Assembly: GCA_029210645.1 (NCBI GenBank)
Contig: JARGFT010000005.1
Span: 1-64,000, forward strand
DNA length: 64,000 nucleotides
DNA from: Anaerosomatales bacterium
GTDB lineage: Bacteria; Actinomycetota; Coriobacteriia; Anaerosomatales; SLCP01
Reading direction: 5' to 3'
Position 1 is the stretch's first letter. The number at the start of each line of letters is the position of its first letter. Of this stretch, positions 43,209 through 54,624 are shown one piece after another. Below the pieces are notes generated by a model that had not been told where the DNA came from, searched no databases, and saw only the letters and a list, made by a program, of their open reading frames with translations. A program made the position numbers and the translations under genes.

Positions 43209-43931
43209 GCGCGTTCGATAGATGATCGCACCGCGGCCGCCCGCATCCGCGACTCCGCCATCGTGAGCTTTGGCCAGGCGGGCTTCGACAAGACCACCGT
43301 TCGCGAGATCGCCGCCGCCGCAGGATTCTCACCGGGCCTCATCCTCCACCACTTCGGTTCGAAGGCGGGGCTGCGTGCTGCGTGCGACGAGCACGTGATC
43401 GCGGAGTTCGCCCGGTCGCGAAACGAGGCGGTCGACTCGGGAACGACCGATCCCTTTGCCGCGATGGCGGGTATCGAGCGCGAGGCACCGATGATGCGCT
43501 ACCTGCTGCAGTCATTGCGTGAGGGCTCCGAGGCCGCCGCGACGCTCTTTGACGGGCTGGCCGAGGAGTCGGCACGTCTGATGGAGCACAGCGTCGAAGA
43601 GGGCCAGCTCAGGCCGAGCGACAACCTCCACGACATGGCGGTCATCCTGGTTGCGTGGCAGTTCGGCGGTCTGCTCCTGCAGGAGCACGTCGCCCGGGCA
43701 TTCGGCGCTGAGCCGCTCACGGCCGCGCCGACACCGCGTCACATCCGTGCCGTTCTCGAGATCCTGACGCACGGGGTCTTCGCCGACAGCCGATACGAGG
43801 ATGCGTGGAACGAACTCGAGACCAGCGGCGAGCCACCGCCCGCCGCTATCAGAGGGCCCGCGAAGTGGCGGGAGAGGGAAAGCGGTCAATCGGCGGCCCG
43901 CAAGGGCGCTGACGCGGTAAAGGAGCGATGA
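43200..43931 (+). CDS. TetR-family transcriptional regulator
   Basis: The 243-residue regulator has an N-terminal HTH ([41 protein letters not shown]) and a C-terminal ligand domain. ATG 43200 fits the family start. An ABC exporter begins at its stop codon (ATGA overlap), so it probably represses that exporter, which is disrupted here. The inverted repeats at 43173-43208 are the likely binding site. Confidence 0.88.
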
Positions 43932-44856
43932 CCATGTCGAGCGTTATCGAGACCGTCGGTCTGGAGAAGAGTTTCGGGAAGGTACGGGCGCTCGACGGGC
44001 TCGACCTGAGCGTTGCACCGGGCGAGGTGCACGGGTTCCTCGGCCCCAACGGTGCCGGCAAGACAACCACGATCCGCGTCCTTCTCGGTCTCCTGCGTGG
44101 GGACGCAGGCCAGGCCAGGCTCTTCGGTGGCGATCCCTGGGAGGACGCGGTCTCGCTGCACCGGCGCATCGCGTACGTTCGCGGCGACGTGGAGCTCTGG
44201 CCGAACCTCACCGGTGGCGGACGATCGATCTCCTCGGCCGGCTCAGGGGTACGCTCAACACCTCCCGGCGTGACACGCTGATCGAGCGGTTCGACCTGGA
44301 TCCCACCAGGAAGGGCCGGACCTACTCGAAGGGCAACCGCCAGAAGGTCGCGCTCATCTCCGCGCTGGCCTCCGACGCCGAACTGCTCCTGCTCGACGAG
44401 CCGACCGCGGGGCTCGACCCGCTCATGGAGGCGGTGTTCCAGGAGGTCATCCGCGAGATGAAGGCCGAGGGTCGCACGGTGCTGCTCTCGAGCCACATCC
44501 TGGCGCAGGTCGAGGTATTGGCCGACCGCATCTCGATCATCCGGCTCGGCAAGGTCGTGGAGTCAGGAACGCTGAGAGACCTGCGGCATCTGACCAGGAC
44601 GACGTTCACGGTGCAGACCACACAGCCGGCAGAGGGGATCGCGCAGATGCCGGGCGTGTTCAACTTCGAGCCCACCGACGGGCAGGTGCGTTTCGACGTC
44701 GACGGCGAGCAAATCGACGTGGTGGTCAGGGAGCTCTCGGCCCTCGGCGTGCAGGCGATCACCTCGCGCCCGCCCACGCTGGAGCAGCTGCTGCTTCGCC
44801 ACTACGGCGACGAGATAGGCGCTCCCGGTGAGGAGCGTGCGGAGGTGGCACGATGA
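43928..44856 (+). pseudogene. ABC exporter ATP-binding protein with a one-base frameshift
   Basis: The N-terminal part has Walker A ([17 protein letters not shown]) and reads to [19 protein letters not shown]. The frame then breaks at about 44217-44221. One extra base there would restore [18 protein letters not shown] and the following TYSKGNRQKVALISALASD (signature), Walker B LLLLDEPTAGLDP and SSHIL. The rest is intact to 44856. It is most like drug-export ATPases regulated by TetR. Either a genuine frameshift or a sequencing/assembly error explains this. Confidence 0.85.
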
Positions 44857-46365
44857 CCACTGCGACCACTTCGGCGAGCGCGACCGGTCGCGGGACGCTC
44901 GCCGGCACGGGCACGCTCGTGCGGCTCATGCTGCGGCGGGACCGCGTCAAGCTGCCCGCCTGGATCCTCGGCATCTCGGTGTTCTGGCTCTACTACACGC
45001 GGCTCGTGCCTCAGGCCTATCCCACGCCGGAGGACCTCGAGAGCATCGTCTCCATGATGACCGCCGGGAGCGGCAGCATGTGGACGGGTCCGACCTACTT
45101 CCTCGAGAACATGACGTACGAGACGTTCATCCCGGGTGCGTACGGCGGGTACCTGTTCCTGATCATCGCGCTCATGAGTATCCTGGTCGTCATCAGGCAC
45201 ACGCGGGTCGAGGAGCAGACCGGTCGGGCCGAGCTGGTGCGCGCGAGTGTCGTCGGGCGTCATGCTCCGCTCACCGCAGCACTGATCACGGCGGTGATCG
45301 CAAACGCGATCGTTGCCGCGCTCGTCGCGCTCATGATGATCGCCGATCCGGTGTTCGGTACGGCGGGCTCGCTGCTCTTTGCGGCCGGATGCCTGGTGAC
45401 CGGTCTCGCCTTCGCGGGTCTGGCATCGGTCTTCGTCCAGATCACCGAGTACTCCCGGACCGCAACGAGCCTGGCGGCGGGTGCAGGCCTCGGTGGGGCG
45501 TTCATGATCAGGGCGCTCGGCGATCTTGGCGGCGATCATGGCACCACGCTCTCGTGGTTCTCCCCGCTTGCCTGGCCGCAGCAGGCCGCTCCGTTCGTGC
45601 TCGACCGCTGGTGGCCGCTCGCCCTGTCGGTGGGGTTCGCCGCCGTGACGGCGGCGCTGGGCTACGTGCTCTCATCGCGGCGCGATGTCGGTGCCGGCCT
45701 GGTGGCCGCTCGCGCGGGCAGGGCACGGGCCACCCGTTGGCTCAGCACGCCGATCGGGCTCGCGTGGCGACTCGAACGCAAGGCCATCATGTGGCGGGCG
45801 ATCGGCATGGGACTTCTGGGCATGGGTATGGGTGCGTTCTCCAACGCTGCGGTGCCCGGGGAGATGCCCGAGGCACTTGTGCAGGTCCTCGGCGGTATCG
45901 AGAACATCCTTGCTGGCTACCTGAGCTACCTGGGCGTCTTCACGGCGACGATAGCCGCCGTCTACGCGGTGCTTTCCGTACAGGGCTTGCGCGCGGAGGA
46001 GACCGTCGGGCGCAGCGTCCGCTATGGGCGACAACTCGCTGGTGTGGGAGGTCACCTTGGCGCATCTCAACCACGTGCCATCGGTGCTCGTGGTACTCGG
46101 CTTCGCCGGCCTGCTGTTCGGTCTGGTGCCCAAGGCGACGAGTGCGGCGTGGGCGCTTGTGGGCTACGGCTTCCTCGTGGGTACGTTCGGTGGGCTGATG
46201 AGCCTCCCCGATGCGGCGATCAAGGCATCGCCATTCGAGCATGCAGCGCGCATGCCGATCGAGAGCTTCGAGTGGGCACCGGTTGCCGCAGTGGGAGCCG
46301 TCGCACTCGCCCTCGCTGTCGCCGGACTTGTCGGTTTCCGGAGACGCGGCATCAACGTCACGTGA
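44853..46365 (+). pseudogene. ABC exporter permease with internal deletion and frameshift
   Basis: The frame from 44853 encodes a large membrane protein like the single-chain polyketide-antibiotic exporter permeases (LAGTGTLVRLMLRRDRVKLP, about ten spans) up to GLRAEETVGR near 46010. The continuation SAMGDNSLVWEVTLAHLNHV lies in another frame from about 46020 to 46365 (ending FRRRGINVT). The roughly 30-40 residues normally between these parts are missing, so this is a deletion rather than a one-base slip. Together with the broken ATPase it implies the exporter is dead, unless assembly errors are involved. Confidence 0.8.
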
Positions 46366-46462
46366 CGTCTGTTCGCGGCCGGAGGCGGTTAGCGCGGCGT
46401 CACGCCGGCTCGACCGGGCGTCTTGAGAAGGAGTGTGCGCTCGAGCGAGCGCGTAAGGCCCG

Positions 46463-46490
46463 TTGCAGTACACGTGTGTGCGGGTATATA
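46463..46490 (+). promoter_or_regulatory. Candidate promoter for the cytochrome locus
   Basis: TTGCAG (46463-46468) and TATATA (46485-46490) are 16 bases apart in an AT-rich stretch containing the palindrome ACACGTGT in the spacer. It lies 326 bases before the first hexaheme cytochrome gene, which would leave a long leader. No other gene is recognised in 46366-46815. Confidence 0.45.
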
Positions 46491-46604
46491 AGCAAATAGG
46501 GCTAGTATCGGAGTTGGGACTCAGTAGACTGCCCGGGGGAGCTACGTAACGGTCGGGGGACCGCATGCGCACGGTGACACCCGGGGATTCTCGGTTTCTC
46601 ATTG

Positions 46605-46815: not shown

Positions 46816-48273
46816 ATGAAGCGCATTACATTCGTGCTCGTATTGGCGGTCGTCCTGACCATGGTATTCTCGGCCACCGCCTTCGCCGAGCACCGTTCAT
46901 CGAAGTACTCGCAGTGGAACCCCGATGCGGCTGGCAATGCAGCGACCGCCGGTAGTCCGCATGCGGAGTACACCACCACGACGGTCAAGTGCAACGTGTG
47001 CCATGCGGTGCACAACGCAGCCGTCATGGGGCAGTACATCCAGAACCAACCAGGTGGCGACTGGATCCTGTCGTCCGAGACGGCTCCGACGGAGATGCTG
47101 CTGCGTTCGAGCGTGGCCGACTCGTGTTCCTACTGCCACATCGACACCAGCACCGGTGGCGTACGGTTGTGGAACGGCAACTCGGACAACTGGGGCCGCA
47201 TAACCATTGACGGAACCAGGTACGAGAAGGCATTCGACAGCGGGTACGGCCACGGCCACAGCGGCTGCTCGGGCTGCCATGCAGTCCACGGCGCCAAGGC
47301 GTTCAAGGGTGCGGTGGCCGGGAAGGTTCTTCGCTACGACGCGGACAACAACCTGAGGAAGGGCTCGCACCTGGGCGATCCGGACGGCGATGGCCCGCTT
47401 TCGAGCGATTCGTCCGCGTACGACATCGGGATCAACGGTTTGGTTGCGGGCAACGTTGCGAACCACACCTACACCGACCCGGTGACCGGGATCGCCACGT
47501 TGACCGGCATCCAGGACGAGGTCTTCACCCCGTACAGCGTTGAGACGTCCCAGCTCGTGGGACCCGAGAACCTGCCGTGGTTCGCGAGCCTGGCGGACCT
47601 CATCGAAGGCACCAATCCCATCAACGAGGCCGTTGGCGAGAACATGAAGGACTTGCAGGTAGGCGGGTTCTGCACCATGTGTCACGCCAACATCTTCACG
47701 TCCGACTCGTTCCAGGTCATCAACCCCGACCAGGACACGTTCCTGGCTGGCGGCTCGTTCGGCCCGTGGCTCGATGTTGAGGGCTTCGAGTACGAGAGCG
47801 GCTTCTACAAGAGCAAGGGCCACCCGGTTCGCGAGGCGACCGACACCTTCTCGGCCCGCGGCGACACCACGGCCGCGACGACCGTGGCCTGGTCTGACGC
47901 TGACGTGTGCCGCAAGTGCCACGACGGCGGCAGCAGCGACGCCCCTGCGGGCATCGTGTACTCGTCGTTCCCGCACGTGACTCCGGGCTACTACAAGTTC
48001 GTGGGCGCGGGGCCCGATGCGGCGACCTACTCCGCCTACGACACCAAGAATGGCATGGTAGGCGAGGGCGAGTGGCTTGCCGGCGAGGAGTGGCTGGGCC
48101 TCGAAGGCGACCTGAGCCCGCTGGTTGCTGCCGGCGCGTATCTGTATGACGGCCAGAACTACAAGAGCGACAACACTGCCGACCCGATGGAGACCGACCA
48201 CATCGGCGTCGACGGCCTGTGCCTGAAGTGCCATGTGTCGGGTACCGGAATGGGCGTCGGGCTCACGTACTAG
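46816..48273 (+). CDS. Secreted hexaheme c-type cytochrome, copy 1
   Basis: This 485-residue protein has a signal peptide (residues 1-24, ending TAFA) and six CXXCH haem motifs in order: CNVCH, CSYCH, CSGCH, CTMCH, CRKCH and CLKCH, the last near the C-terminus. At least ten further His are conserved in the next gene (EHRSSKYS, CHAVHNAA, GYGHGH, CHAVHGA, SHLGDPDGD, ANHTYTD, KGHPV, FPHVTPGYY, TDHIGVDG), enough for bis-His ligation of all haems. DPDGDG may bind calcium. No membrane anchor or wall-sorting signal is seen, so it is probably outside the cell. Haem number, size, and a first motif followed by xxHN recall filament-forming OmcS (comparison from memory). It is probably an electron carrier to external acceptors. 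Confidence 0.92.
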   Translation: MKRITFVLVLAVVLTMVFSATAFAEHRSSKYSQWNPDAAGNAATAGSPHAEYTTTTVKCNVCHAVHNAAVMGQYIQNQPGGDWILSSETAPTEMLLRSSVADSCSYCHIDTSTGGVRLWNGNSDNWGRITIDGTRYEKAFDSGYGHGHSGCSGCHAVHGAKAFKGAVAGKVLRYDADNNLRKGSHLGDPDGDGPLSSDSSAYDIGINGLVAGNVANHTYTDPVTGIATLTGIQDEVFTPYSVETSQLVGPENLPWFASLADLIEGTNPINEAVGENMKDLQVGGFCTMCHANIFTSDSFQVINPDQDTFLAGGSFGPWLDVEGFEYESGFYKSKGHPVREATDTFSARGDTTAATTVAWSDADVCRKCHDGGSSDAPAGIVYSSFPHVTPGYYKFVGAGPDAATYSAYDTKNGMVGEGEWLAGEEWLGLEGDLSPLVAAGAYLYDGQNYKSDNTADPMETDHIGVDGLCLKCHVSGTGMGVGLTY

Positions 48274-48324
48274 AACCAAGAAGATCCTTGTCTTCAGACG
48301 GGGACCCCGACATGGAGCCTGACC

Positions 48325-48383
48325 GGCGTGGGGCCGGTCGGAACGGATCGGCCCCACGCCCGGCCCTCCGGAGACACGGAGGG
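48325..48383 (+). terminator. Double hairpin between the two hexaheme genes
   Basis: GGCGTGGGGCCG (48325-48336) and CGGCCCCACGCC (48349-48360) form a perfect 12-base-pair stem with a 12-base loop. CCCTCCG-gagaca-CGGAGGG follows at 48364-48383. There is no T-run. It may terminate part of the transcripts or protect the 3' end of the first message. A closely similar hairpin follows the second cytochrome. Confidence 0.65.
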
Positions 48384-48470
48384 GCTCCCGGCTCGCCGTC
48401 GGGGACAAGGGCAGGAATGTTGGACATGCACCTCAGGAACCGTTCAGTGAAGGGAGAGGAGGTGCAGACT

Positions 48471-49907
48471 ATGAAGCGAACAGCGTTCGTCCTGGTGTTG
48501 GCGCTGGCATTGCTGGTGGTGCTGTCAACGACCGCCTATGCCGAGCACCGGTCATCCAAGTACTCGACCTGGTCTCAGAGTGCCGGGACGAACGAATTGG
48601 TTGCCGTGCCGCATAGTGGCTACACCACGACGACGGTGAAGTGCAACGTGTGTCACGCGGTGCACAACGCCGCGGTCATGGGCCAGTGGATCCAGAACCA
48701 GCCTGATGGCGCATGGATCCTCTCTTCGGAGCGCGCTCCCGCGCAGATGATGCTCCGTTCCAACGTGGCCGAAGCGTGCTTGTACTGTCACGTCGACACC
48801 GGCATCGCCGGTGTGCGTTTGTGGAACGGCAACTCGCTCAACTGGGGCCGGGACCCGGTCACCGGTGAGGAGCGTCCGTTCGACAGCGGGTATGGCCATG
48901 GTCACACCGGATGCACGAACTGCCATGCCGTGCACGGTGCACGAGCATTCAAGGGTGACGCAGAGCGCAAGATCCTGCGCTACGACGCGACAAACAACCT
49001 GACGAAGAGCTCGCATCTGGGCGACCCTGACGGAGACGGTCCGATTCCGCACGATTCGTCCGAGTACGACATCGGGATCAACGATGCCGTACCCGGCAAT
49101 GTCGCCAACCACACGTACACGGACACGGCCACGGGCGTGTCGACCCTCGTGGGTATCCAGGACGAGATCTTCACGCAGGATCCGACCGGCGTGCTTGTCG
49201 ATCCCCTCAACAAGGCCCAGTTCGCGAGCCTTGCGGGGGTCATCGAGGGATATGGCGCGATCAACGACGCAGCGGGCGCCGACATGAAGGATCTTCAGGT
49301 GGGCGCGTTCTGCACGATGTGCCATGCCAACATCTACACGTCCGACTCGTACCAGGTCATCAATCCCGACCAGGATATGTTCCTGGCAGGTGGCTCGTTC
49401 GGCTGGTGGTACGACATCGAGGGCTTCGAGTATCAGAGTGGGTTTTACAAGAGCAAGGGCCACCCGGTGGCCAGGGCGACGAATGATTTCGCCGCTTCCG
49501 GCAGCACGATCGGAACCGGGAAGACCGTCGCGTGGTCCGGCGCGGAGACCTGCCGTAGATGCCACGATGCGGGACGAGACGATTCCCCTCCGGGTATCGT
49601 GTACTCGTCCTTCCCGCATGTGACCCCGGGCTACTACAAGTTCGTGGGCGCGGGAGCGGACGCAATGTCGTACGCAGTCTCGGGCAACAAGCAGCAGGAC
49701 ATGGTCGGCGACAGCACCGGTTGGCTGGCTGGTACCGAGTTCGTCGACGCAGAACTTGCTGCGGATGGATACATGCTCTATCCGGGTCAGAACTACAAGA
49801 GCGACGACCCGGCCGTACCGGGTCAGACCGATCACATCGGTGTCGACGGCCAGTGCCTGAAGTGTCACCGGTCGGGTTCCGGCGCCGGAGTAGGTCTGAC
49901 GTACTAG
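48471..49907 (+). CDS. Secreted hexaheme c-type cytochrome, copy 2
   Basis: This 478-residue paralogue of the preceding gene has the same plan: signal peptide ending TAYA, then CNVCH, CLYCH, CTNCH, CTMCH, CRRCH and CLKCH at matching positions, with the same extra histidines and DPDGDG. By eye about two-thirds of residues agree. Differences cluster between the third and fourth motifs and between the fifth and sixth. Both end with VGLTY. The ribosome site is AGGGAGAGGAGG. A tandem pair like this recalls omcS/omcT in Geobacter, but orthology is not claimed. Confidence 0.92.
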   Translation: MKRTAFVLVLALALLVVLSTTAYAEHRSSKYSTWSQSAGTNELVAVPHSGYTTTTVKCNVCHAVHNAAVMGQWIQNQPDGAWILSSERAPAQMMLRSNVAEACLYCHVDTGIAGVRLWNGNSLNWGRDPVTGEERPFDSGYGHGHTGCTNCHAVHGARAFKGDAERKILRYDATNNLTKSSHLGDPDGDGPIPHDSSEYDIGINDAVPGNVANHTYTDTATGVSTLVGIQDEIFTQDPTGVLVDPLNKAQFASLAGVIEGYGAINDAAGADMKDLQVGAFCTMCHANIYTSDSYQVINPDQDMFLAGGSFGWWYDIEGFEYQSGFYKSKGHPVARATNDFAASGSTIGTGKTVAWSGAETCRRCHDAGRDDSPPGIVYSSFPHVTPGYYKFVGAGADAMSYAVSGNKQQDMVGDSTGWLAGTEFVDAELAADGYMLYPGQNYKSDDPAVPGQTDHIGVDGQCLKCHRSGSGAGVGLTY

Positions 49908-49957
49908 TGAGCCGCATGCCCTTGCCAGGTATCCACAGGGGCTGGAAGGTTTGCGGA

Positions 49958-49991
49958 GGCAGGGGCCGGTCCAACCGGATCGGCCCCTGCC
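49958..49991 (+). terminator. Hairpin after the second hexaheme gene
   Basis: GGCAGGGGCCG (49958-49968) pairs with CGGCCCCTGCC (49981-49991). The 12-base loop gtccaaccggat is nearly the same as gtcggaacggat in the hairpin at 48325, so both stem and loop are shared between the two genes' 3' regions. Confidence 0.65.
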
Positions 49992-50160
49992 GTGCTGCTC
50001 TACGGGCGTGACGGCCCCTCGCGTGTCGGCTGCGGCCGGAGCGCACGGCTGCTATGTCTCGGCAGGACAGCGCCGTATCATGGAAGTAGTATGGAAGCAC
50101 CCGTGGGCGCTTTTCCCGGAGACTCGATGGGCGCCTGAGGAGAGAGAGGGCACTCGATCA

Positions 50161-50973
50161 ATGCACGATGTCAGCGTGCGTACCGGAACCGGCATGGCGG
50201 AACCCTCCAGCGCGACATACGGGTCCGGCATATACCGCTTCACGCCTGTGTTGATCACGGGTGTTCTCGTCACAATCGTCCTGATACTCGCCGTCATCCT
50301 CTACGGGCTGCTGGGAGGCGTCATCAATCCGCCAGCTCCTCGTACATACCCGGAGTACCTGCTCGTCCGCGCTCAGACTATGGTAGGAGAGGAGCCTGGC
50401 AACGGACAGTACTGGGCCGACTACGTTGACATCATGATCCTCCGCGGCAACTACCGAGAGGCGGAGGACCTGATCGTGCAAGCTCGGGAGGCGGTCGGCG
50501 ACAGCGCGACAATCCTACTCGTGAACAACGCCGAACTCCGGCTTCTCCTGGCCCAGGGAGTGTATGAGGAAGTGCTCGAGCGAGGAGAAGCCTACCTCGA
50601 GCAGGACGCCGAGATGCTCAAGAGCCAGCTTGCCGACTATGCAGCGCGCGGCATCACCGTGCCGTCCACATTCAATAAGCAGAGAGCAGCGGTGACTATC
50701 GAGACGCTGCTCGTGCGCGCCCGGGCAGCGGTAGAACTCAAGGAGTACGAGACTGCACTCGACGACTTGAATGCGGCGCTGGACTGGGATCCTCTGGCGG
50801 CGGACATCCGCATCTTCAGGGGCAACGTCGGTCTGCTCGAGGGTGGTGCCGAGTCGCTCGAGCGCGCGAAGGAGGACTTCACCTTCGCACTCCAGTTCCT
50901 GCCCGATTCCGACGCGGCACGGGCCGGCCTCGCCGAGCTGGAACGGCGGCTTGAGGAGGAGGTCGCACCCTGA
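50161..50973 (+). CDS. Membrane-anchored TPR-repeat protein
   Basis: This 270-residue protein has one membrane span near residues 30-52 (VLITGVLVTIVLILAVILYGL). A helical C-terminal domain follows with tetratricopeptide-like repeats (YWADYVDIMILRGNYREAEDLIVQA, TALDDLNAALDWDPLAADI). The C-domain would be outside the membrane. It lies in the cytochrome block and could help cytochrome export, assembly or haem loading; this is inference from position. The start is not certain: ATG 50161 has only a distant purine-rich site. Confidence 0.7.
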   Translation: MHDVSVRTGTGMAEPSSATYGSGIYRFTPVLITGVLVTIVLILAVILYGLLGGVINPPAPRTYPEYLLVRAQTMVGEEPGNGQYWADYVDIMILRGNYREAEDLIVQAREAVGDSATILLVNNAELRLLLAQGVYEEVLERGEAYLEQDAEMLKSQLADYAARGITVPSTFNKQRAAVTIETLLVRARAAVELKEYETALDDLNAALDWDPLAADIRIFRGNVGLLEGGAESLERAKEDFTFALQFLPDSDAARAGLAELERRLEEEVAP

Positions 50974-51039
50974 TGGGTGTCGGCTCAGAGCCACTCCGAG
51001 ACATGGAGAGATCACGTGATAGGAGGGAAGGACGACCAG

Positions 51040-52329
51040 ATGAGACACGATGGTGAGGATCCGACCGACGTGGCCGAAGGACAGTCTCCCCACGAGGAGC
51101 CGGTCTATACAGAGACGATCGTCGAGTACGTCGACAACAGACAGCGCAAGATCGTGTTCGGAGCCCTCATCGTCGTGCTTGGGTTACTCATCCTTCTCCT
51201 GGCGGGGTCGTCGTATTACGTCTTGTACTGGACGCAGGGCGGCTCGGGCGCTCCTGCCGCAGGGGATCTCCCGGAGGGTCTGGAGTGGGTCCGTTCGATC
51301 TACGGGTGGGGAGAGACAGCGGACACGTCCCTCAGTTCGCCGAGTGACGTCGCTATCGCACCTGACGGCTCTATATGGGTCATATCGGCAGCCCAGATGG
51401 TGGTGGGCTTCAATCCCGACGGCACGCTGAAGCAGGTCATCCATCCCGAGCGCGGCTTCGAGCGAGGACAGGTCGATACTCTCGAAGGCATCACCGTCGG
51501 TCCTGATGGTGTCATCTACGTCACCGATCAGGGCAAGGGATCCATCGAGAGGTTCGAGCAGGACGGAACCTGGATCGGACAGTGGCCGGCGAACTTGCCG
51601 ATCGAGATCACGTCTGACGGCAGCGATCGGCTTGGGGTCACCGGTGAGGGCGGCTTCGGTGTCCTGCGCGTCCTCGGTGACACCGCCGAGATCCTGGGGA
51701 GTTGGGGCCGGAGGGGCACTGGAGAGACCGAGTTCGACCTACCGCACGGCGTCGCGTTTGGCGCAGACGGGAAGGTCTTCGTCTCGGACACGCACAACGC
51801 GAGGGTCAAGGCGCTCGATCAGAACGGGGAGGTCCTTTGGATCACCGAGGGGACTCCCCGACGGTTCAGCGAGTCGATGGAGGCGACCACCACCTCGGTG
51901 TTCCAGCTGCCGTCCGGCATGACGGTTGACGCGAGCGGTCGAGTGGTCGTCGTGGACCCGTTCGGCTTCAACATCACGGTACTGGACTCCGAGACGGGAT
52001 CCACCATAGGCCAGTACGGCGACTACGGTGTGACCGACGGCCTGTTCGCGTATCCCACCGGCATCGACTACGACGAGGACCGGGACTGGTTCGCTGTCGC
52101 GGACACGGCGAACAACCGCGTGCAAGTCGTCCGCATCCCGGGCAGTGGCGGGTCGCCGCTTGCGGCGCTGAGGCGCAACCTCGTCGGCCCGGTCTGGGTG
52201 TGCTGCATCCCCCTGTTCCTCCTGCTGATACTGCTGGTTGCGGCCGTGCTTCGGCGACGTGCCAGGGGGCGACAGGACGACGAGCGTGCGGGTGAGGGAG
52301 CGGCAGCCGATGTGATCGAGGCCGGCTGA
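51040..52329 (+). CDS. NHL beta-propeller protein tethered by membrane spans at both ends
   Basis: The 429-residue product has a span near residues 37-60 (KIVFGALIVVLGLLILLLAG), a six-bladed NHL-type propeller (repeats such as SPSDVAIAPDGSIWVIS, LPHGVAFGADGKVFVSDTHNARV, LPSGMTVDASGRVVVVDPF), and a second span near the C-terminus (GPVWVCCIPLFLLLILLV). Both termini are thus cytoplasmic and the propeller external. Propeller proteins often accompany multihaem cytochromes in my recollection and may serve as binding platforms. ATG 51040 follows AGGAGGGAAGG. Confidence 0.75.
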   Translation: MRHDGEDPTDVAEGQSPHEEPVYTETIVEYVDNRQRKIVFGALIVVLGLLILLLAGSSYYVLYWTQGGSGAPAAGDLPEGLEWVRSIYGWGETADTSLSSPSDVAIAPDGSIWVISAAQMVVGFNPDGTLKQVIHPERGFERGQVDTLEGITVGPDGVIYVTDQGKGSIERFEQDGTWIGQWPANLPIEITSDGSDRLGVTGEGGFGVLRVLGDTAEILGSWGRRGTGETEFDLPHGVAFGADGKVFVSDTHNARVKALDQNGEVLWITEGTPRRFSESMEATTTSVFQLPSGMTVDASGRVVVVDPFGFNITVLDSETGSTIGQYGDYGVTDGLFAYPTGIDYDEDRDWFAVADTANNRVQVVRIPGSGGSPLAALRRNLVGPVWVCCIPLFLLLILLVAAVLRRRARGRQDDERAGEGAAADVIEAG

Positions 52330-52417
52330 GAACCGCGATGTCGAACGGGACCGCCATCGCGCCAGCGTGCAGGTGCCGGCGGACGTACACGATACAGGGG
52401 GCGCAGGGGCGATCGAC

Positions 52418-53383
52418 GTGTCTGACCGCGCAGAGCTGAAGAAGCCGACCAGGATCTGGCTGGTCGCGTTCCTGGCCGCGTGCGCCCTGCTTCTGGGCGT
52501 CGGCGTGGCCGGCTCCTTCCCGGCCGCCTGCTCGCTCTGCCATGCGGTCTCCGCACACGCACTCGAGGAGTCCGCGCACGCATCTGTGGCCTGCTACGAG
52601 TGCCACCTCTCCACCGGGGCCTGGAGTCTACCCCGGCACAAGGCCGAGGAGTTCCTCGTGATGTACACGCGTCAGCTGAGCGGAGCGCGCGGGCCGATGC
52701 TCGAGGAAACGTCACGCGCTGCCTGCCTGTCGTGCCACGGGGCTGTCCTGGAGGGGGTCACCTCCGGCAGGGGTCTCCGGATCGCTCACCTGTCGTGTGC
52801 GGAGGGTCCGACGTGCGACGGCTGCCACGCGACGGTCGCGCATGCGGGCGAGTCCGGGCGGCTATCGGCCCCCTCTATGGAGGAGTGCCTCGGATGTCAC
52901 GCTGCGGAAGCAGTGTCAGTCGAGTGTGAGACCTGCCATGTGGGCGATGAGTCAGTGACGCTGGACTCGCCGCGTCCGAGCCCATGGAGGGTGACGCACG
53001 GCGACAACTGGCGCGACACGCATGGAATGGGCGACAGCAGCCTGTGTGACGTGTGCCACGCAGAGGACTTCTGCGCGAAGTGTCACGCCGTGACACTTCC
53101 GCATCCCGCGTCGTTCGGGAAGACCCACGGCAGAGCCGCCATCAGTGATGGGTCGCTGTGCAGGGATTGCCATGACGAGGCGGCATTCTGCAATCCGTGT
53201 CACGGCATGTCGATGCCTCACTCCACCGGCTACATCAGGGTCCACGGAGCGAGTGCCGAATCGGTCGACGATCCGCGGTGCGCACGGTGTCACGCGATGC
53301 GCGACTGCGAGGACTGCCACAACAACCACATTCACCCCGGAGGGGCATCTCTGCCACAGCCACCGACCGGATCGAACCGATGA
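52418..53383 (+). CDS. Membrane-anchored dodecaheme c-type cytochrome
   Basis: This 321-residue protein has an N-terminal anchor (residues about 12-33, WLVAFLAACALLLGVGVAG) leading straight into CSLCH, as in NapC/NrfH quinol oxidases. In total there are twelve CXXCH motifs: CSLCH, CYECH, CLSCH, CDGCH, CLGCH, CETCH, CDVCH, CAKCH, CRDCH, CNPCH, CARCH and CEDCH. Repeats of LPHPASFGKTHG and MPHSTGYIRVHG add ligand histidines. It could take electrons from menaquinol and pass them outward. GTG 52418 (site AGGGG) is chosen over GTG 52367. It overlaps the next cytochrome gene. Confidence 0.9.
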   Translation: MSDRAELKKPTRIWLVAFLAACALLLGVGVAGSFPAACSLCHAVSAHALEESAHASVACYECHLSTGAWSLPRHKAEEFLVMYTRQLSGARGPMLEETSRAACLSCHGAVLEGVTSGRGLRIAHLSCAEGPTCDGCHATVAHAGESGRLSAPSMEECLGCHAAEAVSVECETCHVGDESVTLDSPRPSPWRVTHGDNWRDTHGMGDSSLCDVCHAEDFCAKCHAVTLPHPASFGKTHGRAAISDGSLCRDCHDEAAFCNPCHGMSMPHSTGYIRVHGASAESVDDPRCARCHAMRDCEDCHNNHIHPGGASLPQPPTGSNR

Positions 53384-54624
53384 TGAATGACCTGCTGGAC
53401 AGGTTCTTCTCCCAGGTGCGGGAGGTCTCGCTCGATGAGGCGCTCTCTGCTCTGAGGACGTTCGTCAACGACCCGACCGGCGATCCACGCGCACTCATGA
53501 TAGGCGTCGCGATCGTGGTCCTGGCCATCCTTGTCGTCGTGCTCTTTCTCCTGTACGTCCTGATGTCACCGAAACGGAAGATCGTCAAGGTCCGACAGTA
53601 CTCGTCAGTCCCGTCTTACGCACCCGACCGCGGCGATGGGGTGGAGTCTGGCGCCCTCGAACCCCGCGGAAAGCCACCTTCTTCGCAGGAACGGCCGACT
53701 TTCAGCCCGTTGTGGTCCTTCCTGGGCTCGGGACTGGGAATCACCTTGATCATGGTGACTGGTTTCGCGGTCCTCTACGGCGCCACGTCGACGGACAGCT
53801 ACTGCTACGATGCGTGCCACGCGCTGTCACAATCCGTCATAGCCGCGCACGAAGAGGACCACGCGTCGTGTGCGGGTTGCCATGAGCGTCCGGGGTTCGT
53901 CGGTGTGTTCGGCAATACGTTCTCCCGCGCGCGCATGGTTATCACGACGGCTGCCGGCCGGCAGCAGGCCGAGCCGCTCCCGGTAGGTTCTCTGGGCTGT
54001 GTGCGCTGCCACGATGACGTGTTGGATCGACCGGTGCTCTCCGAGGAGGGCGTCGCCGTATCCCACAAGGAGATCGTGGACGGCGGGGACCCCTGTACCA
54101 GTTGTCATGTCGGCATCGGGCACGGCCGGACCGACTACGTGTCGGGCATGGCTCCGTGTGTCGTGTGCCACGACGCGGTTCGGGCTACCTCGGAGTGCAG
54201 TGCATGTCACGTAGTGACCGTCGTGCACGAGCCTGAAGCGGGGGAGCCGATAGCAACCGTTTCGGAGAGCGGATACCACTACACGCTGGTGAACGCCTCC
54301 CGCCCGTACTGCGACGACTGCCACGATGTTGTCAACCAGTGTGATCCCTGTCACGGAGGGATCAGGATGCCCCATGACGATGACTTCATCGGTGGGGGGC
54401 ATGCTCGATCGGCTGCCTTCGAACGCAAGGCGGTGTGCTGGAACTGCCACACGCCCGAGCGCGACTGCGGCTCTCCGTGCCACCGGGGCTTCCGCAGATC
54501 GGGCGTGAACGGCCATCCACCCAGCTGGAGGACCGAGCACGGCAAGGCGCCACGTACGTCAACGTGCGGTTGTCACCAGTGGTATTCAGGTCGCAGAGGT
54601 CCTATGTGCCCGCTGTGCCACTGA
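53380..54624 (+). CDS. Two-span membrane multihaem cytochrome with CX3CH motifs
   Basis: This 414-residue protein has spans near residues 38-62 and 112-134. Nine standard motifs follow: CAGCH, CVRCH, CTSCH, CVVCH, CSACH, CDDCH, CDPCH, CWNCH and a C-terminal CPLCH. Two more have an extra residue, CYDACH at the end of the second span and CGSPCH, and there is one CGCH. CX3CH sites do bind haem in some cytochromes, so the total may be 9-11. Its ATG overlaps the stop of the dodecaheme gene (ATGATGA), implying coupled synthesis and perhaps a complex. Confidence 0.88.
   Translation: MMNDLLDRFFSQVREVSLDEALSALRTFVNDPTGDPRALMIGVAIVVLAILVVVLFLLYVLMSPKRKIVKVRQYSSVPSYAPDRGDGVESGALEPRGKPPSSQERPTFSPLWSFLGSGLGITLIMVTGFAVLYGATSTDSYCYDACHALSQSVIAAHEEDHASCAGCHERPGFVGVFGNTFSRARMVITTAAGRQQAEPLPVGSLGCVRCHDDVLDRPVLSEEGVAVSHKEIVDGGDPCTSCHVGIGHGRTDYVSGMAPCVVCHDAVRATSECSACHVVTVVHEPEAGEPIATVSESGYHYTLVNASRPYCDDCHDVVNQCDPCHGGIRMPHDDDFIGGGHARSAAFERKAVCWNCHTPERDCGSPCHRGFRRSGVNGHPPSWRTEHGKAPRTSTCGCHQWYSGRRGPMCPLCH

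Follow-up and report, generated by a model that had tools for sequence, protein, structure and literature searches.

A conserved six-gene multihaem cytochrome locus, a probable electron conduit, in an Anaerosomatales bacterium

The passage of electrons through the thick wall of bacteria without an outer membrane is largely an open question. In Dethiobacter alkaliphilus, clusters 1-Fe-T, 2-Fe-T, 3-Fe-T and 2-Fe contain multihaem cytochromes together with NHL and tetratricopeptide repeat (TPR) proteins; several of them include a CymA-like quinol-oxidising cytochrome, and a role in assembly or placement has been proposed for the NHL and TPR proteins (PMC10376724). In the order Anaerosomatales, a report on Parvivirga hydrogeniphila and Anaerosoma tenue describes quinol-oxidising multihaem cytochromes clustered with others (PMC9686372). 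Here we analyse a locus of six genes at positions 46816-54624 of a 64,000-nucleotide stretch (the window) of an Anaerosomatales bacterium. The window is from contig C42; the genome (G000) has 1.98 Mb in 46 contigs and is rated 100% complete. The locus probably encodes a monoderm electron conduit, in which electrons would pass from the membrane redox pool to two anchored cytochromes (P0005 and P0006) and from these to secreted hexahaem cytochromes (P0001 and P0002) across and beyond the wall, linking the cell with minerals, electrodes or partner cells, with a TPR protein and an NHL protein (P0003 and P0004) serving as tether or assembler.

All six reading frames are open and lie on the plus strand. 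The first gene encodes secreted hexahaem cytochrome P0001 (46816..48273, 485 amino acids), and the second its tandem paralogue P0002 (48471..49907, 478 amino acids, 67% identity to P0001). They are followed by genes for a TPR protein with an N-terminal membrane anchor (P0003, 50161..50973), an NHL beta-propeller between two transmembrane (TM) helices (P0004, 51040..52329), a membrane-anchored 12-haem cytochrome with an NrfH-like N-terminus (P0005, 52367..53383) and a membrane-anchored 12-site cytochrome (P0006, 53380..54624). The original prediction, made from the letters of the window, had named two secreted hexahaems, a TPR protein, a two-span NHL protein and an anchored 12-CXXCH protein on one strand, and the reading frames, signal peptides, TM segments and domains agree with it. 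Its count of 33 standard CXXCH motifs was reproduced exactly (6, 6, 0, 0, 12 and 9 in P0001 to P0006). Including the non-standard sites of P0006, the four cytochromes together have about 36 haems, and no other open reading frame of the window contains three or more CXXCH motifs. The stop codon of P0005 overlaps the start codon of P0006 (ATGATGA from 53380), which suggests coupled translation.

The six-gene set is a real, old and conserved syntenic unit. The original prediction was to fall if gene order proved not to be conserved among relatives; the order is conserved. In most loci of relatives found with the hexahaems, the genes follow one another as TPR, NHL, hexahaem, 12-haem and 10/11-haem protein. 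A test free of the bias of that choice was based on 24 loci picked solely by the 12-haem protein from a collection of 84,980 species. The 11/12-haem partner was present in 24/24 loci and the same-strand TPR-NHL pair in 23/24, and 22/24 had a secreted multihaem belonging to the family; the three misses are near contig ends, at distances of 1.5, 2.8 and 3.4 kb. In a sample of 61 genomes, taken at levels from the genus up to the order, 51 contain the 12-haem protein (E ≤ 1e-60), and so do 46 of 396 genomes across the phylum (E ≤ 1e-20), with none among the other class members listed. TPR, NHL and multihaem genes adjoin the cytochrome pair in many other actinomycetotal families, and also in Candidatus Aquicultor. 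In the tree of the 12-haem protein, the window belongs to an Anaerosomatales/Coriobacteriia group that includes EMTCatB1 (support of 97/91 for the set of 14), and the host is accordingly assigned to Actinomycetota, class Coriobacteriia, order Anaerosomatales. Kept in most sampled genomes of the order and recurring in several other actinomycetotal families, the module likely names the minimal parts of the system, the two helper proteins included.

Both anchored cytochromes are related to NrfH. Their family profiles match NrfH in the PDB (2j7a_C; E = 1.3e-7 for P0005 and 2.2e-8 for P0006), and the match covers the TM helix and the four-haem domain in the N-terminal part of each protein. The NapC/NirT-type family PF03264 is also above the cut-off for P0006 (E = 3.4e-7). 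The likeness to NrfH (PDB 2j7a/2vr0) thus lies in the TM helix and the four-haem NapC/NirT-type domain, whereas each protein of the pair adds eight more haem sites C-terminal to it, P0006 has an extra TM segment and there is no NrfA partner. One TM segment is found in P0005 (30-48) and two in P0006 (44-62 and 115-133). In the alignment, P0005 shows 12 CXXCH motifs and 11 other conserved histidines. In NapC/NirT/NrfH-type quinol dehydrogenases, one haem at the quinol site lacks a second histidine ligand, as does haem 1 of NrfH; the 11 histidines counted for 12 haems would fit this pattern. Both anchored proteins would stand on the outer side of the membrane and reach into the wall, with electrons moving between them and the redox pool of the membrane.

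For P0006, the original prediction of about 11 motifs has to be corrected to 12 sites. Its 24 cysteines are all used by nine CXXCH, two CX3CH and one CXCH motifs, the non-standard sites being CYDACH at 143, CGSPCH at 364 and CGCH at 397. Nearly all of the 57 aligned relatives (47 distinct) have a motif at these three sites, but its spacing varies: at site 1 there are 35 CXXCH and 12 CX3CH, at site 10 there are 34 CXXCH, 9 CXCH and 2 CX3CH, and at site 11 there are 23 CXCH, 21 CXXCH and 1 CX4CH. Many relatives thus have CXXCH where P0006 has a non-standard motif. It is simplest to count all three as haem sites, by which P0006 would bind 12 haems. CXCH is an unusual haem motif, and a literature search on it found no paper. 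The swaps among CXXCH, CXCH and CX3CH at fixed sites provide a natural experiment on the tolerance of haem attachment.

NrfH/NapC-type anchors normally serve reductases of soluble acceptors, so the locus might encode a reductase system of the nitrite, sulfite or tetrathionate type, accessory proteins included, and not an extracellular conduit. This we consider very improbable: the module contains no catalytic multihaem (NrfA, Otr, SirA/MccA), and the hexahaems have six distal histidines and match no catalytic family above the cut-off.

P0001 and P0002 possess Sec-type signal peptides, with the cleavage site of P0001 at AFA|EHR; neither has a lipobox or a C-terminal anchor. All 12 cysteines of each protein sit in CXXCH motifs, which excludes a chance occurrence of these motifs. 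P0001 matches the doubled CXXCH domain of Pfam, and P0002 the MtrC/MtrF domain II/IV above the cut-off. Exactly 12 histidines are invariant in the hexahaem family (22 sequences), six in CXXCH motifs and six distal, in strict alternation; in P0001 these are H49, 63, 66, 108, 146, 155, 158, 290, 336, 369, 387 and 473, kept in 22 relatives. The natural reading of this pattern is that all six haems would have bis-histidine ligation. In the proposed conduit, the hexahaems would accept electrons from the anchored pair, or give electrons to it, and would form its wall-crossing and extracellular part, possibly as stacked filaments similar to those of OmcS. The order of genes in the window, with two tandem hexahaems ahead of the TPR-NHL pair, differs from the common one. 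Genome G011 has another tandem pair of long hexahaems, equally identical to each other (L038, on the same contig as L042). After the final CXXCH, hexahaems of the order end in GVGxxF/Y (window 48253-48270, for example) and those of several other families in LP; in either case these are the last residues of the protein.

OmcS of Geobacter sulfurreducens (PDB 6ef8/6nef) resembles these proteins in being a secreted hexahaem with 12 histidines available, a doubled-CXXCH domain and the same Pfam domains, and an arrangement of its histidines in the same alternation is possible. However, its host is a diderm, and OmcS forms filaments, whereas the hexahaems of the window are possible filament proteins. 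Of the 12 histidine ligands of the six OmcS haems, the subunit itself supplies 11 and its neighbour the remaining one (PMC6584659). Homology to OmcS was sought in several ways. PDB searches with the hexahaem, both single-sequence and profile, were weak, and the profile does not find OmcS; hhalign joined the two over a 41-column piece only. In global profile alignment, OmcS scored z = 1.2 and 1.8 against shuffled sequences with the haem motifs retained, which is within the null; hexahaem family members of other classes scored z of about 6-17 in the same alignment. A bridge through OmcS-like pairs in other families (L092 and L093) was no stronger, with E = 0.0046 from their profile to OmcS and E = 2e-7 from the hexahaem profile to L093_1633. 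Homology to OmcS is thus not shown by PDB profile, hhalign or global alignment, and the hexahaems are not classed as OmcS members.

A sharper form of the conduit reading makes the hexahaems filament subunits like OmcS, homologous or convergent, and the locus a dedicated Gram-positive nanowire system with the TPR-NHL pair as its assembly machine. The six haems, the 12 invariant alternating histidines and the doubled-CXXCH domain in both families argue for it, as does secretion without a covalent anchor signal. Tandem paralogues are a further common trait, OmcS being accompanied by its tandem paralogue OmcT. For P. hydrogeniphila, pili-like appendages are described on cells with ferrihydrite and not with Fe(III) citrate (PMC9686372). 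These appendages are, however, reported to be 0.8-0.9 nm wide, below the width of the OmcS filament, and the failure of the homology searches also speaks against filaments of this kind. AlphaFold2 models built from a 19-sequence alignment reached a pLDDT of only 37 for the full window protein and 42 for the compact homologue from L047 without its signal peptide. On balance, we regard filaments as a fair possibility that falls somewhat short of even.

Alternatively, the hexahaems could be monomeric cytochromes of the wall or surface, similar in role to OcwA/OmhA, which pass electrons to soluble or solid acceptors while the TPR-NHL pair keeps them and the two anchored cytochromes together as a static complex. 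Both TPR and NHL folds mediate protein interaction and are here tethered to the membrane, and Fe(III) reduction in monoderm relatives has been ascribed to surface multihaems (PMC10376724). But the hexahaems lack an anchor or sorting signal, and there is no sign of a catalytic haem without a distal histidine, as all six can be bis-histidine. Monomers of this type are conceivable, and slightly less probable in our judgement than filaments.

P0003 has a single TM segment (31-49) and a family profile match of 269 bits. P0004 has two (39-57 and 386-404) that flank the NHL repeats (E = 4.7e-23 for NHL and 548 bits for the family profile), and the basic flanks of these helices place the propeller outside. 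In relatives, the TPR and NHL genes are direct neighbours with a shared orientation. In the proposed conduit, this membrane-tethered, always adjacent pair would hold, assemble or anchor the secreted cytochromes. In other families, O-antigen-ligase-like (Wzy_C) proteins of about 670-690 amino acids with C-terminal TPRs adjoin the module (L081:9885-11900, L082:8671-10194 and similar), and a glycosylation of the secreted cytochromes by them is possible. Another NHL propeller gene, adjoining a doubled-CXXCH cytochrome, was found elsewhere in the genome of the window (L100:3722-5988, contig C41).

A family search found no Omp85 in the genome, which is consistent with a Gram-positive wall. This type of wall is reported for the two cultivated Anaerosomatales species (PMC9686372). 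Porin-cytochrome conduits (MtrCAB, OmaB-OmbB-OmcB) share with the locus a multihaem chain from the membrane to the outside but differ in their barrel; no barrel gene is among the six. Of the haem-attachment genes ccsBA/resB, which the original prediction had proposed to look for, ResB was found away from the locus on contig C41 (match G000:C41:36566-36871), so that the host has a ResB/CcsA-type route of haem attachment. Near this match, an open reading frame of at least 1602 amino acids has 29 CXXCH motifs (L099:15094-19899). A second multihaem cluster of the genome (L094:8798-17843, contig C22; 3-12 CXXCH) contains proteins mostly related to the anchored pair, with no TPR, NHL or hexahaem matches.

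NrfH-type proteins are usually quinol oxidisers, and the original prediction had menaquinol as the electron donor. The NrfH matches of both anchored cytochromes support this, and MenA is present on contig C41 (57191-57901; L100:8090-9013; NF004751, 323 bits against a cut-off of 264). Other results weigh against the conduit as proposed, and those on menaquinone leave the donor uncertain. MqnC and PF02621 are absent from the genome of the window, although they are above the cut-off in 39/61 and 38/61 genomes, respectively, and the sole match to MenD has 62.8 bits against a cut-off of 244.2. Quinones were reportedly not detected in the two cultivated species (PMC9686372). In P0006, about 6-7 conserved non-motif histidines face 12 haem sites, which leaves part of the ligation unexplained. 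The low pLDDT of the hexahaem models belongs here as well, and so does the presence of the module in a putative A. tenue genome (matched by assembly statistics), despite the inability of that species to reduce ferrihydrite or AQDS. Menaquinone may be finished from imported dihydroxynaphthoate, or made by an unknown route. Across the 61 genomes, the association of the 12-haem protein with MqnC is weak (37/14 against 3/7, Fisher p = 0.024, uncorrected for kinship).

The physiology of relatives bears on the electron acceptors. EMTCatB1, which carries the module (L043), made up about 60% of reads on a methane-producing cathode held at −0.5 V (PMC5347234). P. hydrogeniphila is described as an obligate Fe(III) reducer that reduces ferrihydrite, and A. 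tenue as reducing neither ferrihydrite nor AQDS (PMC9686372). The module is present in genomes G030 and G045 (L026, L035), which match P. hydrogeniphila and A. tenue by assembly statistics only. The delivery of electrons to outside acceptors, as originally predicted, is supported insofar as relatives reduce Fe(III) or dominate an electrode. But its presence in the A. tenue-like genome means that the module is not sufficient for the reduction of Fe(III) or minerals, or that other acceptors or a reverse direction apply in some hosts. Parvivirga is the cultivated relative to which the module points.

The reverse direction can be extended to the module as a whole, which would then work mainly inwards, drawing on cathodes, Fe(II) or partner cells for the electrons that feed reduction inside the cell. 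The dominance of EMTCatB1 on a cathode and the A. tenue-like genome suit such a role. The obligate Fe(III) reduction of Parvivirga (PMC9686372) does not suit it, nor does the usual oxidation of quinol by NrfH-type proteins, and we find it unlikely.

The original prediction had suggested that the combination with TPR and propeller proteins may be an undescribed assembly set. This was too strong, as Dethiobacter clusters that combine multihaems with NHL and TPR proteins (PMC10376724) and quinol-oxidising multihaem clusters in the same order (PMC9686372) had already been published. The gene content of the module (multihaems, a CymA-like cytochrome, NHL and TPR) fits the Dethiobacter clusters, compared by their description only, but these come from another group of organisms, and some add flavoproteins, ABC transporters or MtoA-type cytochromes. 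PMC9686372 ties Fe(III) reduction to a cluster with a molybdopterin enzyme, and neither TPR and NHL genes nor the five-gene order are named in the passages covered. A literature search for the module gave nothing closer than the papers cited here; the fixed five-gene module, its reach across the phylum, the 12-histidine hexahaem signature and the shifting haem motifs were not found described. Taken to its furthest, the conduit reading would be an ancient dedicated system of extracellular cytochromes in monoderm Actinomycetota, in which hexahaem filaments not detectably related to OmcS are built or held by the membrane TPR-NHL pair and charged straight from the membrane by two 12-haem NrfH-type proteins, one of them using natural CXCH/CX3CH sites. 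We put this forward tentatively, as a rather doubtful proposal in its entirety.

In three sister modules from a Tomsk metagenome-assembled genome (MAG) and Candidatus Aquicultor-type MAGs (L059:14399-16288, L060:11772-14078 and L061:10052-12502), the gene of the secreted cytochrome contains one in-frame TGA. The TGA is at the same place in all three (RH-TGA-xRxM), and the reading frame is open before and after it. It is closely followed by a hairpin, which is more stable than shuffles in just one of the three. The same genomes contain tRNA-Sec (about 72-74 bits). These proteins are candidate selenocysteine-containing multihaems.

No Rfam match that would point to riboswitch control was above the gathering score in the window or in seven relatives, and sigma-70 promoters and terminators did not exceed their count in shuffles. 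Just to the left of the cluster (window 43928-46499), the genes of an ABC exporter are broken up over different frames (43928-44281 and 44425-44856; 44853-46499 and 46024-46365), which points to frameshifts or to errors in the assembly.

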